Of a DNA stretch of 64,000 bases, positions 7,323-12,269 are shown piece after piece. A program made the translations under genes and the position numbers. Location of the stretch: assembly GCA_028710415.1 (NCBI GenBank), contig JAQTUE010000011.1:62001-126000 (forward strand), given 5' to 3'. The stretch comes from Paludibacter sp. Lineage in GTDB: Bacteria > Bacteroidota > Bacteroidia > Bacteroidales > Paludibacteraceae. The notes beneath the pieces are model-generated. The model was not told the origin of the DNA and ran no database searches. It was given only the letters and a program-made list of their open reading frames with translations. Within the stretch, counting starts at the first letter, position 1, and the number at the start of each line of letters is the position of its first letter.

Positions 7323-7605
7323 CACCAAACTGTCTCCGCTACGCGGCTTAAGAATCCTACGGTTGATGTCTTTCTACCAAACTGTCTCCGCTATGCGGCT
7401 TAAAAATTATTCTACCAAACTGTCTCCGCTACGCGGCTTAAGATTCCTACGATATATGATATTCTACCAAATTGTCTCCGCTACGCGGCTTAAGATTCCT
7501 ACCTTATATGTTATTCTACCAAACTGTCTCCGCTACGCAGCTTAAGATTCCTACGGTTTATATTATTCTTCCAAACTGTCGCCACTTCGCATCTTCTGAT
7601 TCCAA
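7323..7605. repeat. Tandem repeat, 52-bp period (one 38-bp unit)
   Basis: CTACCAAACTGTCTCCGCTACGCGGCTTAAGATTCCTAC starting at 7323, 7374, 7412, 7464, 7516 and a degenerate copy at 7568. Confidence 0.9.
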
Positions 7606-7649
7606 ATGATTGCTATGTTTCTTAAGACTGAAAGTCTGCCATACACTAG

Positions 7650-7725
7650 CCCAAGGCAAAGCCCTGAAAGGGTGAAGCCTTGGGTAATTAACCACCCACC
7701 AGATCTTCGCCCTGAAAGGGCAGCA
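7650..7725. repeat. Nested palindromic repeats CCAAGGC..GCCCTGAAAGGG..GCCTTGG and GCCCTGAAAGGGC
   Basis: Direct reading of self-complementary segments. Confidence 0.75.
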
Positions 7726-7903
7726 TATAAGGTCCATAAATCAATCCTGAAAGTTTTCAAACTGTCCAATCAGATTATAATTGGACCTCATATAATTTAC
7801 TATGGGTTAATTTATCGGTCATTCATTTCAAAAACCAGCCATCTTCCTCAGTACAGATTATTTTGTTTATTATATCCGGTATCAATTACTCCCGCTTAAC
7901 CAT

Positions 7904-7943
7904 AAAAAAAAGAGACCCTAACCGAAGTCAGAATCTCTTTTCT
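7904..7943 (-). terminator. Intrinsic terminator of the minus-strand operon
   Basis: Minus strand agagattctgacttcggttagggtctctttttt. Confidence 0.85.
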
Positions 7944-7968
7944 GTATTTACTATAATTCCAGTTTCTA

Positions 7969-9231
7969 TTAAAAGAACGAAGCTACAAACAATGTCATGG
8001 TTAGCCCAATCAATACCGAAATGGTAAACCATCCGAATATGTTCTGGTACCGGTTATTCACATGCACCCCCATTACTTCCTTGTTGTTTACAATCAATAT
8101 CATGCAAATCAATACTACCGGCAGCAGCAACCCGTTGGCAACCTGAGACCACAAGGTGATCAGGATAAGCGGAGCATTCGGTATTAATATAATGGCAGCG
8201 CCAATGATGATGATAAATGTAAACAACCAATAGAACTGGGGTGCTTCCTTCCATTTCTTATCAATCCCTGCCTCAAATCCGAAAGCCTCGCACACATAGA
8301 ATGCGGTGGCAACCGGTAGGATGGTTGCTGAGAAGATGGACGCTATAAACAGCCCGAATGCAAAGGTCGCAGAAGCTAAATCCCCTGCCAGAGGTTTCAG
8401 TGCAAAGGCAGCATCCTTGGCTTCCTCAATTTTAATCCCGCTCATGTGCAGGGTAGAGGCACAGGCAACAATGATAAAGAATGCCACTACCACCGTAATG
8501 ATACTCCCGAAGATCACATCTGCCAAGGTGTATTTATAATCCGATATGGTCAGCCCTTTCTCAATCACCGCCGACTGCATGTAGAACTGCATCCACGGGG
8601 CAATGGTGGTACCTATGATCCCGATCACGATAGTCAGGTAATCCTTGGTATACTTGATGTCCGGTTTAATCATTGCCTGACCGATATCATGCCAGTGTGG
8701 TTTGCCCAACAATGCTGAAAAGACATACACTAACAGGAAGGCACTGAATATCAGGAAAACCCTTTCGCTGAATTTATACGTTCCCTTTACCACCAGCCAC
8801 CATACCAGCACCGCGGAGATGGGTACTGAAATATATTTGCTGATATCAAAAACCTGCATACTGCCTGCAACCCCCGCAAATTCAGTGGTCGTGTTGCCTA
8901 TATCGGCAATCAACAGGCCCACAAATATAAAGAAGGTTATTTTTACACCTGCATATTCCCTGATCAGGTCCGCCAGCCCTTTGCCGGTTACAATCCCCAT
9001 GCGGGCATTCATTTCCTGCACCACTACCAGTACCAGAAAGGCCGGGAACATAGTCCAGAGCAGGTTATAACCGTACAGGGCGCCGGCTACCGAATAGGTA
9101 GTGATGCCCCCGGCATCATTGTCAACGCTTCCGGTGATGATTCCCGGACCCAGAATGGCAAGGAATACAATGATATTCCGCCAGATATTCTTACGTCTTT
9201 TGTTGAATTCGCTGTATTTAATTAACGCCAT
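7969..9231 (-). CDS. Nramp-family transporter, NRMT-like (probable Mg2+/Mn2+)
   Basis: GPGIITGSVDNDAGGITTYS in TM1 in place of DPGN; IGTTIAPWMQFYMQSA in TM6 in place of MPH; ~11 TM segments. Confidence 0.85.
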   Translation of the reverse strand: MALIKYSEFNKRRKNIWRNIIVFLAILGPGIITGSVDNDAGGITTYSVAGALYGYNLLWTMFPAFLVLVVVQEMNARMGIVTGKGLADLIREYAGVKITFFIFVGLLIADIGNTTTEFAGVAGSMQVFDISKYISVPISAVLVWWLVVKGTYKFSERVFLIFSAFLLVYVFSALLGKPHWHDIGQAMIKPDIKYTKDYLTIVIGIIGTTIAPWMQFYMQSAVIEKGLTISDYKYTLADVIFGSIITVVVAFFIIVACASTLHMSGIKIEEAKDAAFALKPLAGDLASATFAFGLFIASIFSATILPVATAFYVCEAFGFEAGIDKKWKEAPQFYWLFTFIIIIGAAIILIPNAPLILITLWSQVANGLLLPVVLICMILIVNNKEVMGVHVNNRYQNIFGWFTISVLIGLTMTLFVASFF

Positions 9232-10517
9232 GAACGACTGCTTTTCCTTGTTTTACCTTTATCCATTAAATCTTCAATAATATCATCGATGACAACCATA
9301 CCCACCAGGGTGTTTTGTGCATCGGTCACCGGAATTGCCAGCAAGTCGTATTTCAAAATAATCGAAGCCAACTTGTCAATCTTATCCTCATCCTGTACGC
9401 TGATAACCTGTTTGTCCATGATATCGGCCAGGCTCAACTCTGGTGATGAGATCACCAGGTCTCTCAATGAAACGGTGGCTACCAGTTTCTCGTCGTTATC
9501 CGTAATGAACAACGAATAAATCATATCTGCTTCCGGTTTCTGCAGCCTCAATTCCTTCAGGGTATCCTCAATGGACATCGACTCACGGAACGAGAGGTAA
9601 TCGGTGGTCATGAGACTACCCACTTCCTTATCATCATATTCCAGCAATTCGCGGACATCCTCTGACGATTCTTTTTCCATTTCGTTCAGCAGCTCTTCCA
9701 CCTTTTCGTCTTCCAGCTCGTCCATCAAGTCGGCTACCTCGTCGGCAGGCATCTTTTCCAGTACGTCGGCAGCCTTGCTTATCGAGAGGCTCTCGATAAT
9801 CTGTGCCTGTGCGTAAGGTTCCATTTCTTCCAGTACGTCGGCAGCACGTTCTTCATCGAGTGATTCAAACACCTTGGTACGTGAGAGTGAACCCATTTCT
9901 TCAATGATGTCCGCCAGGTCCGAAGGGTGTAACAGTTGTAGTTTACTCGATGAATGCGAGAGTTTGATGTTGAAGTTGGTGGTGTCGAAGGCTTCCACGT
10001 CATCCCACAGTATAAACTGGGTAGGCAGGCTTAGCTTGAACAAATACAGCAATTTGTTGATGATATAGGCTACACCCAAACGTCGCAACAGGCCTTCGGT
10101 GCTGATATCCACAGCCAGGGCATAGATCTCGGGATCAATGGAGACCAACCGGATGTCGTTCACCCGCACCAGTTTACGGCCGTTGATATCCACAATCTGA
10201 CGGTCGAGGATGTTCTTTACCAGTGGCAAACAGTTTTCAATGGTGGAATCGGGTAATTGTTCAATCTTAGAACATCTGAACGAAAAAGTCCGGTTATTCT
10301 TTTCAATTTTGATGTGCTCAAAGTTCAGGTACCGGACTTCCCCGTTGATCCTGGTTTTCAGTCCAATAATAACCGGTCGGAACGCTTCTTCCTTGTGCTT
10401 TCCGTGTTGTGCGGTATTGACTATGATGTCAATAACTTTGCCTAGACGGTTTCCGTTCAGGTCATAGATCTTACAGCCGGTTACCTGGCTTAAGTAAAAT
10501 GTGATTTGTGATGTCAT
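9222..10517 (-). CDS. MgtE intracellular N-domain + CBS + PRC-barrel-like protein (no channel domain)
   Basis: Repeated LxxLxPxDxADIxEEM / EERAADVLEEM / EVADLMDELEDEKVEELLNEM, then YDDKEVGSLMTTDYLSF and CBS repeats; overlaps the transporter start. Confidence 0.88.
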   Translation of the reverse strand: MTSQITFYLSQVTGCKIYDLNGNRLGKVIDIIVNTAQHGKHKEEAFRPVIIGLKTRINGEVRYLNFEHIKIEKNNRTFSFRCSKIEQLPDSTIENCLPLVKNILDRQIVDINGRKLVRVNDIRLVSIDPEIYALAVDISTEGLLRRLGVAYIINKLLYLFKLSLPTQFILWDDVEAFDTTNFNIKLSHSSSKLQLLHPSDLADIIEEMGSLSRTKVFESLDEERAADVLEEMEPYAQAQIIESLSISKAADVLEKMPADEVADLMDELEDEKVEELLNEMEKESSEDVRELLEYDDKEVGSLMTTDYLSFRESMSIEDTLKELRLQKPEADMIYSLFITDNDEKLVATVSLRDLVISSPELSLADIMDKQVISVQDEDKIDKLASIILKYDLLAIPVTDAQNTLVGMVVIDDIIEDLMDKGKTRKSSRSWR

Positions 10518-10655
10518 TTGCCACCTCCTTTTTTTGTAGACTTAGAAGGACGGCTGAAGGAACGATGCGATCAGGCGAACTTTTAAATCAGGATGATTTT
10601 TACTAATTTTCGTATCGCAGGGTCGTCGTCCATTGTGGATTGATGTTTTTTTGAT
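10518..10655 (-). promoter_or_regulatory. Structured 5' leader RNA, candidate metal-responsive riboswitch
   Basis: Minus-strand -7 box TACCTTTG at 10662-10669; nested helices GGACG/CGTCC, ACGA/TCGT, TGCGAT/ATCGCA, AAATCA/TGATTT; SD AAGGAGG just before ATG. Confidence 0.55.
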
Positions 10656-10814
10656 TTCGTGCAAAGGTAATCTAATTTTTTTACGAAAAGATACACCCTT
10701 TTTATTTTAACGTTTATTTTATTTGTCTTGTCTTTTTCTGTGGCAGATATGTCAATCCCGCTTCATTTAGTAAATGGAAATAAATAATGTTGAGTCATTC
10801 AATTTGTACAGCCT

Positions 10815-10983
10815 TGAGATTAGAACGCGGATAGACGCTGATTTGGAGCATATTTGCTGATCATAATATAACTTATGATAGTCATGCAAGCTTGACTGAT
10901 ATGAATAAAAAGATATCTGAAAATCATTCCGACTTTTTGGATTTAAAATACACTATTTCAGCGTCCATTCGCGTTCTAAGTTT
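10815..10983. repeat. Divergent palindromic element of the AGAACGCGGAT family
   Basis: TTAGAACGCGGATAGACGCTGATTT ... ATTTCAGCGTCCATTCGCGTTCTAA. Confidence 0.8.
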
Positions 10984-11129
10984 TTTATAAAATACAGATC
11001 AATATTTCTATCTCCAACGAAATAAGAAGGGTGATAAAAAAGTGTTACTTTCTTATATTCCCTTTCCTGTTTATGTAGTGTTTCGAGCTGCCTCTGCTCC
11101 TTTGTATATTCGTATCTCATTTTTACTAT

Positions 11130-11221
11130 AGATAGGGTTGAGTTAGGGTTGAGATAGGGTTGGGATAGGGTTGAGATAGGGTTAGGATAGGTAAATCTAT
11201 CTGAACCCTATCTGAACCCTT
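11130..11221. repeat. GATAGGGTTGA microsatellite with inverted arm
   Basis: (GATAGGGTTGA)n - ggataggtaaatctatc - (TGAACCCTATC)n; sister locus at 59650-59747. Confidence 0.9.
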
Positions 11222-11636
11222 ACTAAAGTCCTTCTGAATCCTTTTTATAGAAAGAATGGATGGAGACAAGATGCCGGATGAACGGTGATTGAATAAATAA
11301 GATGATGGACTAAACCTGATTTTAAGTCTTCAACTATCCATTTCTTGTTGGGAGTCAGAAAATATGAAGCCAAAACGGGTATAAAAATAATAGATAGTGT
11401 GTTAAATATAAGGAAAGTAATGTATAATAATCAATAAATATTTAGATGGTAATGATGTCAGGAGATGTCAGGACATGTCAGGAGCTGCAAAAAATAAAAA
11501 ACAACTGATTAACACTCTATTTAAGTATATCAGATTAATTAAAATATATTTATCTTTACAACGTTATATCAGTATACTTTCCTGACGGAGTGTATGAAAA
11601 GCCGTAATCCATTTATTCATTTAAAATTTTAACAAC

Positions 11637-12269
11637 ATGAGTATCGCACAAAATCCCTTGCTGGGTCCCATGACAAATTCTATGGGTAATTTTACGATGT
11701 ACACATACAATGGCATGAACATCGTTCGTTCGAAGGCATTTAAAGTCAAGGATGCCAAAAGTGAAAAGCAACTCAATGTACGGGCACGTATGGCCGCTCT
11801 GGGTGAAAAATACCGTTTCTTTAAGAGTGTCATTGGCCTGGGATTTCCTGAAGACAGTGAATACAAATCACCTCAAAACATGTATGTTAAAGCCAATTAC
11901 TCAACTGCCTTTGAACTGATTGACGACAAGCCGGTCTTTAGTTATCCCCTGATGGTAGTTGCCAAAGGATCCTTGCCTGTAGTGACTGTGACAGAATCCG
12001 TCATCGATGCAGAAGGAATTAAGATACAGTTTGATGCTTCAGCATTGTTTCCTAATGTGACGGCCGCCGATGAACTGATAGCCAGTGCCCGTCTTGAAAG
12101 CGGCGTATTGCTTATTGTCCGGCAAGTGCTGGGGTTTAAAGCCACGGGAACGATCCATTTGAATTATCCTAACCTGCAAGCCGGGGATGTGGAATGCTGC
12201 TATCTGTTTGTGCGAAGCGGGGACGGGAAGAAGACTTCGAATTCGGTGTTTATGGAAGTGAATTCCTAA
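11637..12269 (+). CDS. DUF6266 family protein
   Basis: N-term MSIAQNPLLGPMTNSMGNFTMYTYNGMNIVRSKAFKVKDAKSEKQLNVRARM; overall length and pattern. Confidence 0.75.
   Translation: MSIAQNPLLGPMTNSMGNFTMYTYNGMNIVRSKAFKVKDAKSEKQLNVRARMAALGEKYRFFKSVIGLGFPEDSEYKSPQNMYVKANYSTAFELIDDKPVFSYPLMVVAKGSLPVVTVTESVIDAEGIKIQFDASALFPNVTAADELIASARLESGVLLIVRQVLGFKATGTIHLNYPNLQAGDVECCYLFVRSGDGKKTSNSVFMEVNS

Follow-up and report, generated by a model that had tools for sequence, protein, structure and literature searches.

The window, a stretch of 64,000 nucleotides from a Paludibacter sp. contig, carries on its minus strand two overlapping genes behind a short upstream open reading frame (uORF): one for a channel-less MgtE-like protein, which we call the sensor, and one for an Nramp-fold transporter of the NRMT type. 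The best explanation of this arrangement is, with fair probability, a two-gene Mg2+-uptake operon in which Mg2+ controls the importer at two levels, synthesis and activity. As to the separate levels, our analysis makes a response of the leader peptide to Mg2+ quite probable, and we lean towards a gating of the NRMT by the sensor. The features of the two genes are as follows.

7906..7943, minus strand: terminator-like hairpin with a T run, closing the two-gene operon
7969..9231, minus strand: predicted NRMT-type Nramp-fold Mg2+ transporter, 420 aa (domain search, comparison with EleNRMT, tree)
8593..8610, minus strand: TM6 ion-site motif TTIAPW, residues 208-213, TxxA, Met to Ala (alignment; NRMT signature, PMC8806188)
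9106..9123, minus strand: TM1 ion-site motif DNDAGG, residues 37-42, DxxG (alignment with EleNRMT and MntH)
9222..9231, minus strand: 10-nt overlap of the two reading frames (sequence)
9222..10517, minus strand: detached sensor PRC-PRC-MgtE_N-CBS-CBS, 431 aa, with basic C-terminal tail and neither channel nor plug helix (domains, AlphaFold)
9258..9620, minus strand: CBS pair, residues 300-420, D412 corresponding to MgtE D247
9630..9932, minus strand: MgtE N domain, residues 196-296, ligand positions D227 (E59), D259 (D91) and D263 (D95)
9987..10232, minus strand: second barrel-like domain, residues 96-177 (AlphaFold, conservation), possible dock on the NRMT
10269..10517, minus strand: first PRC-barrel-like domain, residues 1-83 (PF05239, 4.7e-7; AlphaFold; in 85 of 88 relatives)

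Both reading frames of the original prediction are real and overlap as it described, an overlap through which translation of sensor and NRMT may be coupled. The transporter was assigned to family PF01566 in a domain search (E 3e-96), and EleNRMT (7qia) is by far its closest solved relative, with a phmmer E-value of 8.9e-111 compared to 5e-26 for the best MntH. TM1 reads SVDNDAGG instead of DPGN and TM6 reads TTIAPW, just as had been seen in the letters; relative to the MPH of classical Nramps, Met has become Ala and His has become Trp. The resulting ion site, D39xxG42 / T208xxA211, carries the DxxG-TxxA/T signature of NRMTs (PMC8806188). The phylogeny against NRMT and MntH that had been suggested as a check was calculated: the transporter lies outside MntH and far from it, within an 85-row clade beside EleNRMT and the Mg-riboswitch-controlled Bacillota NRMTs, where the branch to EleNRMT is long and has a moderate support of 86. 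Judged by its sequence, the protein encoded at 7969-9231 (minus strand) is an NRMT-clade Nramp. The earlier description as an Nramp paralogue is right about the fold and loose in the word paralogue, since NRMTs, among which the transporter falls, form an outgroup clade.

The overlapping upstream gene had been described as the MgtE N-domain and CBS module without the MgtE channel, and the domain search agrees: MgtE_N (2.5e-28) and two CBS domains are found, and the PF01769 channel domain is absent from the protein. The earlier reader missed the PRC barrels. One is recognised by sequence at the N-terminus (PF05239), and the AlphaFold model (mean pLDDT 83.6) doubles it, placing two barrels of together about 180 residues ahead of the MgtE_N superhelix. 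The C-terminal half of the sensor matches cytosolic structures of MgtE (2oux, TM-score of 0.85 on the target), with a sequence match to 2yvy at 1.7e-35. MgtE_N and CBS domains are present in all of the 88 sensor relatives and the PRC domain in 85.

In MgtE, E59, D91, D95 and D247 are ligand positions that close the channel (PMC5882242). They align to D227, D259, D263 and D412 of the sensor, are conserved throughout the main clade with few exceptions, and provide the window sensor with the Mg4, Mg6 and Mg7 ligand positions of MgtE. The Mg5 ligand pair is mostly lost across sensors, while the window sensor itself has D391 and E415 there. The plug-helix ligands of Mg2 and Mg3 (E258 and D259 of MgtE) fall on T423 and R424 in the basic tail of the window sensor, and the ATP-stacking Phe of MgtE is Leu. 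Gating in the manner of MgtE proper is excluded: the sensor has no plug helix, the Mg2/Mg3 positions are not kept and Mg5 is mostly lost. The most conserved stretch of the sensor, residues 99-148, lies inside the second PRC-like barrel, which we propose as the dock on the NRMT. The sensors of L009-L026, which accompany a Bacteroidota NRMT family of 37% identity, lie 3' rather than 5' of the NRMT gene and have Ala at the position of MgtE D91; given the loss of this ligand position they may read something other than Mg2+.

In order to assess how regularly the two genes occur together, we compared 80 related loci in named genomes of Bacteroidota, Bacillota, Spirochaetota, Omnitrophota, Ignavibacteriota and others. 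A sensor frame lies directly upstream on the same strand in 75 of them; three of the other five are non-adjacent, two are cut by contig ends, and all five genomes have a sensor elsewhere. The pairing of NRMT and sensor is near-obligate across phyla and is not due to chance. Throughout 198 Bacteroidota genomes the TTIA/TPW type of NRMT and a full-length sensor co-occur, in either gene order, with one NRMT locus cut by its contig. The seven examined loci of related Nramp-like genes without the TTIA/TPW motif have no adjacent sensor, and no direct fusion of NRMT and sensor was seen among the related loci. The whole sensor-NRMT pair occurs twice in L034, convergently and with its own leader on each copy. 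In a Paludibacter MAG (L036:5328-6275, plus strand) a gene at the position of a CorA match follows directly 3' of the NRMT, giving a sensor-NRMT-CorA cluster.

None of the 11 close-clade genomes with the pair has the MgtE channel, compared to 174 of the 198 genomes of the phylum that do, and PF01769 is absent from the whole Paludibacter genome. Over all genomes with the pair it is missing from 11 of 23, against 13 of the 175 others (Fisher 4e-6, uncorrected for kinship). In the close-clade genomes the pair, by its gene content, replaces MgtE; many genomes of the distant 37%-identity family have retained MgtE alongside it. An M-box precedes 11 of the 13 Bacillota loci whose NRMTs are 68-75% identical to that of the window and none of 15 non-Bacillota loci, and neither the M-box (RF00380) nor any other Rfam element was detected in positions 7500-11700 of the window.

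Part of this is already known. Shin et al. described in 2014 NrmT transporters under M-boxes, with an MgtE-N-like gene adjoining most NrmT loci, found this gene dispensable for transport and proposed feedback regulation (PMC4072509); the pairing and the idea of feedback in trans are therefore published. Our survey leaves MgtE-like Mg2+ sensing in trans on the NRMT plausible on the basis of the co-occurrence, the N-domain Mg ligands that are kept and the absence of the MgtE channel. We found no paper, among open-licence full texts, that joins PRC barrels with these MgtE-like sensors.

The partner could instead assist the assembly or stability of the NRMT, or act as its metal chaperone, and not be a Mg2+-dependent gate, which we regard as possible but rather doubtful. 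The C. acetobutylicum NRMTs function without it in heterologous complementation (PMC4072509), as does purified EleNRMT in transport (PMC8806188). The same reading would suit the missing plug helix, the Mg2, Mg3 and Mg5 ligands that are not kept across sensors, and the fact that conservation peaks in the second PRC-like barrel and not in the Mg module. Against it stand the three N-domain acidic positions and D412, retained by almost every sensor of the main clade, the intact MgtE N and CBS fold, and the replacement of MgtE by the pair in close-clade genomes. Gating by the sensor is the reading we retain for the activity level.

The level of synthesis concerns the region 5' of the sensor gene, where the earlier reader also missed the promoter, the uORF and the attenuator:

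10521..10529, minus strand: Shine-Dalgarno of the sensor gene, AGGAGGTGG, predicted to be sequestered by arm B in the OFF state
10538..10558, minus strand: attenuator arm B (anti-Shine-Dalgarno), pairing with arm A or with the Shine-Dalgarno
10570..10590, minus strand: attenuator arm A, the uORF end including its stop and the following bases
10583..10633, minus strand: uORF of 16 codons and a stop, leader peptide MDDDPAIRKLVKIILI
10662..10669, minus strand: Bacteroidota-type -7 element TACCTTTG (TAnnTTTG), TA and TTT columns invariant in 36 aligned leaders

Further 5' of the operon, at 11140-11230 of the window, the intergenic region holds a short tandem repeat (AACCCTATCTC type), which probably accounts for spurious matches to miRNA families.

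A uORF starting M-D-x-x-P precedes 47 of 90 sensor genes, compared to 0.06 expected in shuffles, and one of 508 upstream regions of the other genes of the same loci; many of the 47 loci are related and do not represent 47 independent events. The start is MDDDP in the window, with the acidic residues and the proline inside the first five codons as in leaders of the MgtL/MgtQ type, and MDEGP or MDDGP in most Bacteroidota. In Bacillota it is MDGDP or MDSDP (Clostridium), MDTDP (Desulfosporosinus) or MDPDP (Paenibacillus), and in Spirochaetota MDPYP or MDAGP. Codon 2 is always Asp, and Pro5 is the most regular residue after it. The survey yielded no such uORF for the Omnitrophota/Ignavibacteria-like sensor clade, nor for the Bacteroidota family of 37% identity.

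Two mutually exclusive stems together with the uORF are predicted, from the sequences, to form a translational attenuator. Native A:B pairing has a mean of -17.4 kcal/mol, compared to -13.45 for the best of 10,000 between-locus mispairings, and native B:SD pairing a mean of -14.0 compared to -12.2 for the best of 10,000. The trend of both also holds for 18 distant representatives, and five pairs of the leader alignment have compensatory changes. Opening the Shine-Dalgarno is 3.4 kcal/mol costlier with the ribosome at the uORF stop than with the ribosome on the uORF start (modelled by blocking the first 28 nt, which hold the acidic start); the corresponding value for shuffled sequences is -0.8 (p 1e-11). 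The shift is as expected in 40 of 48 leaders, from 3.9 to 6.7 in that of the window, and the other eight lack the shift that the attenuator model demands. Several CorA leaders, which are described below, have no clear Shine-Dalgarno or almost no shift. In the unconstrained fold of the window leader the Shine-Dalgarno hairpin is already favoured and the site closed, so that the ON state would have to rely on co-transcriptional order and ribosome position.

These patterns also bear on whether the conserved leader is itself a metal-binding RNA, a riboswitch in which the short ORF is incidental. The strong conservation of the nucleotides ATGGAYGA and of GCG at codon 6 would suit such an RNA, and Mg2+ riboswitches exist, the M-box in front of Bacillota operons being one. 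We nevertheless consider it improbable: the window leader has no Rfam match, the third base of the Pro codon is free (CCT, CCG, CCC and CCA are all used), and the frame is open in all 51 leaders at varied length. Past codon 6 the sequence changes freely while the A:B and B:SD complementarity is kept, and Bacillota share the peptide start within different surrounding bases. A translated leader peptide is the reading we carry forward. Of the Bacillota loci with an M-box, 8 of 11 have an MDxxP uORF as well.

The same leader occurs before other Mg2+ genes. A covariance model built from NRMT leaders only was run over 396 Bacteroidota genomes (E <= 0.01) and found 12 places: two before sensors, five before CorA, one before MgtC and four others. 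All six CorA and MgtC places have a uORF starting MDD, MDE or MDxDP, and the remaining four have none. A widened, sequence-only model run over 395 Bacteroidia genomes (E < 1e-5) found 22 places. At 20 of them the gene that follows has to do with Mg2+ transport: sensors, CorA, a full MgtE and two ATPases of the MgtA type. Eight of the 22 are leaders of its own training set; outside that set 12 of 14 places precede Mg2+ transport genes, with two of the 12 (L214 and L215) being near kin that share their peptide with a training leader. The MgtE leader (L230) has TGTAAGG in both arm A and the Shine-Dalgarno region and CCTTACA between them. Among the weak matches to the widened model (E from about 1e-4 upwards), examined in part, are genes with no relation to Mg2+. 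Nor do all Mg2+ genes have the leader: the uORF was found neither at the 30 best-matching Bacteroidota CorA genes nor at 20 Bacteroidota MgtE upstream regions, which serve as negative controls.

Some individual places deserve mention. One genome (G403) has the leader before both a sensor gene (L133) and a CorA gene (L143). In L236 an acidic uORF runs out of frame into the start of a full-length MgtE gene, a layout that differs from the attenuator. A widened-model match at 9e-6 was rejected, being the coding start of a GldE-like protein and not a leader. In L233 a GldE/CNNM-type gene starts with MDEPPPG right after a TAnnTTTG-like element, and its N-terminus resembles the leader peptides. In L231 and L241 (Bacteroidia, around 1540) the acidic leaders MDPGSSCKKLLI and MDAGPSKIKSII, each ending in a stop, stand before OprB-family outer-membrane porins, with a hairpin just 5' of the porin start codon; these porins possibly serve Mg2+ entry.

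Taken with the uORF survey, these results make it quite probable that Bacteroidia, together with at least some Bacillota and Spirochaetota, have in common one type of Mg2+-sensing leader peptide (M-D-x-x-P / M-D-D), in most members with a Shine-Dalgarno-sequestering attenuator, which stands before the unrelated NRMT-sensor, CorA, MgtE, MgtA and MgtC families. If so, the M-box operons of Bacillota would have two such elements in series, the riboswitch and the leader peptide.

A uORF attenuator commonly senses aminoacyl-tRNA, and the regularity of Pro5 could be taken to mean that the leader responds to charged tRNA-Pro or tRNA-Asp, as Salmonella mgtP does to tRNA-Pro, or to general translation stress, and not to Mg2+. 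This is quite improbable, since there is a single Pro codon, the acidic residues beside it are kept, several CorA leaders have no Pro at all (such as MDDYYSEMLN and MDDYYYSLVLN, each followed by a stop), and the genes behind the leaders are unrelated Mg2+ families rather than amino-acid genes. That the transporter mainly carries Mn2+ is very improbable: EleNRMT takes Mn2+ besides Mg2+ (PMC8806188) and an NrmT-outgroup member of A. capsulatum, beside an MgtE-like gene, apparently transports Mn2+ rather than Mg2+ (PMC4072509), but the relatives of 68-75% identity sit under Mg2+-specific M-boxes, the leader class is common to CorA, MgtE and MgtA, and the Paludibacter genome has a second, separate and canonical Nramp with the MPH motif.

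For the leader as a Mg2+ sensor there are precedents. Ribosomes drop off MgtL at EPDP when Mg2+ is low (PMC11282234), in mgtQ the unmasking of a Shine-Dalgarno depends on acidic residues (PMC8092293), and E. coli corL acts on corA (PMC11552253). By analogy, the leader described here would report ribosome stability at low Mg2+ and would probably switch importer production on under that condition. The mRNA would start roughly 25-30 nt 5' of the uORF. In ample Mg2+ the ribosome would reach the uORF stop and cover arm A, and arm B would then be available for pairing with the sensor gene's Shine-Dalgarno (OFF). In low Mg2+ the ribosome would be destabilised on the acidic, proline-containing start and would leave or stay 5' of arm A, so that A could pair with B and the Shine-Dalgarno would be free (ON). 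The sensor, translated first, would then dock on the cytosolic face of the NRMT, perhaps via the PRC barrels, and its MgtE N/CBS module would read cytosolic Mg2+ and close the NRMT when Mg2+ is replete.

Bacteroidota are a dominant gut and environmental phylum, and Mg2+ sensing for the control of uptake in them is little described in open-licence full texts. A leader class before several families of Mg2+ importers would give a regulon that is readable from sequence alone, and would mean that Mg2+ sensing by ribosome destabilisation is not confined to Enterobacteria. The tandem-PRC and MgtE sensor is a concrete candidate interface for the feedback proposal of 2014.

In open-licence full texts we found no description of a leader of the MgtL/MgtQ type outside Enterobacteria, although an earlier description elsewhere is possible, and a leader peptide with two exclusive stems before Mg2+ importers is apparently undescribed. 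The operon otherwise combines features of several known systems. With the NRMT/NrmT systems (Ca_c0685 and Ca_c3329 of C. acetobutylicum, and EleNRMT) it shares the fold, the DxxG-TxxA site and the adjacent MgtE-N-like gene; relatives there are under M-boxes, whereas the window organism has no M-box, carries tandem PRC barrels on the sensor and leads the operon with a uORF attenuator. The cytosolic domain of MgtE has the same N superhelix, CBS pair and Mg4/Mg6/Mg7 ligand positions, but the sensor is a separate polypeptide with extra PRC barrels, without channel or plug helix, and of a family in which Mg5 is mostly lost. MgtL of mgtA (E. coli and Salmonella) likewise precedes Mg2+ importers and begins with acidic residues and proline in corresponding positions (Met followed by EPDP, compared to DDDP); it belongs to a different phylum and acts through Rho-dependent termination, unlike the predicted Shine-Dalgarno sequestration of the window leader. 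Salmonella mgtQ, before mgtB, is also a short acidic uORF with alternative stems masking a downstream Shine-Dalgarno. It is intergenic, however, and its translation opens the site by a 1:2, 2:3, 3:4 logic, whereas in the window A:B would compete with B:SD, and the site would be closed by a ribosome that has reached the end of the uORF. The M-box riboswitch (RF00380) exerts Mg2+ control in cis on the same operon, as the window leader, by its presumed Mg2+ response, would do; it is a protein-free RNA sensor, absent from the window and coexisting with the MDxxP uORF in most of the M-box loci of Bacillota.
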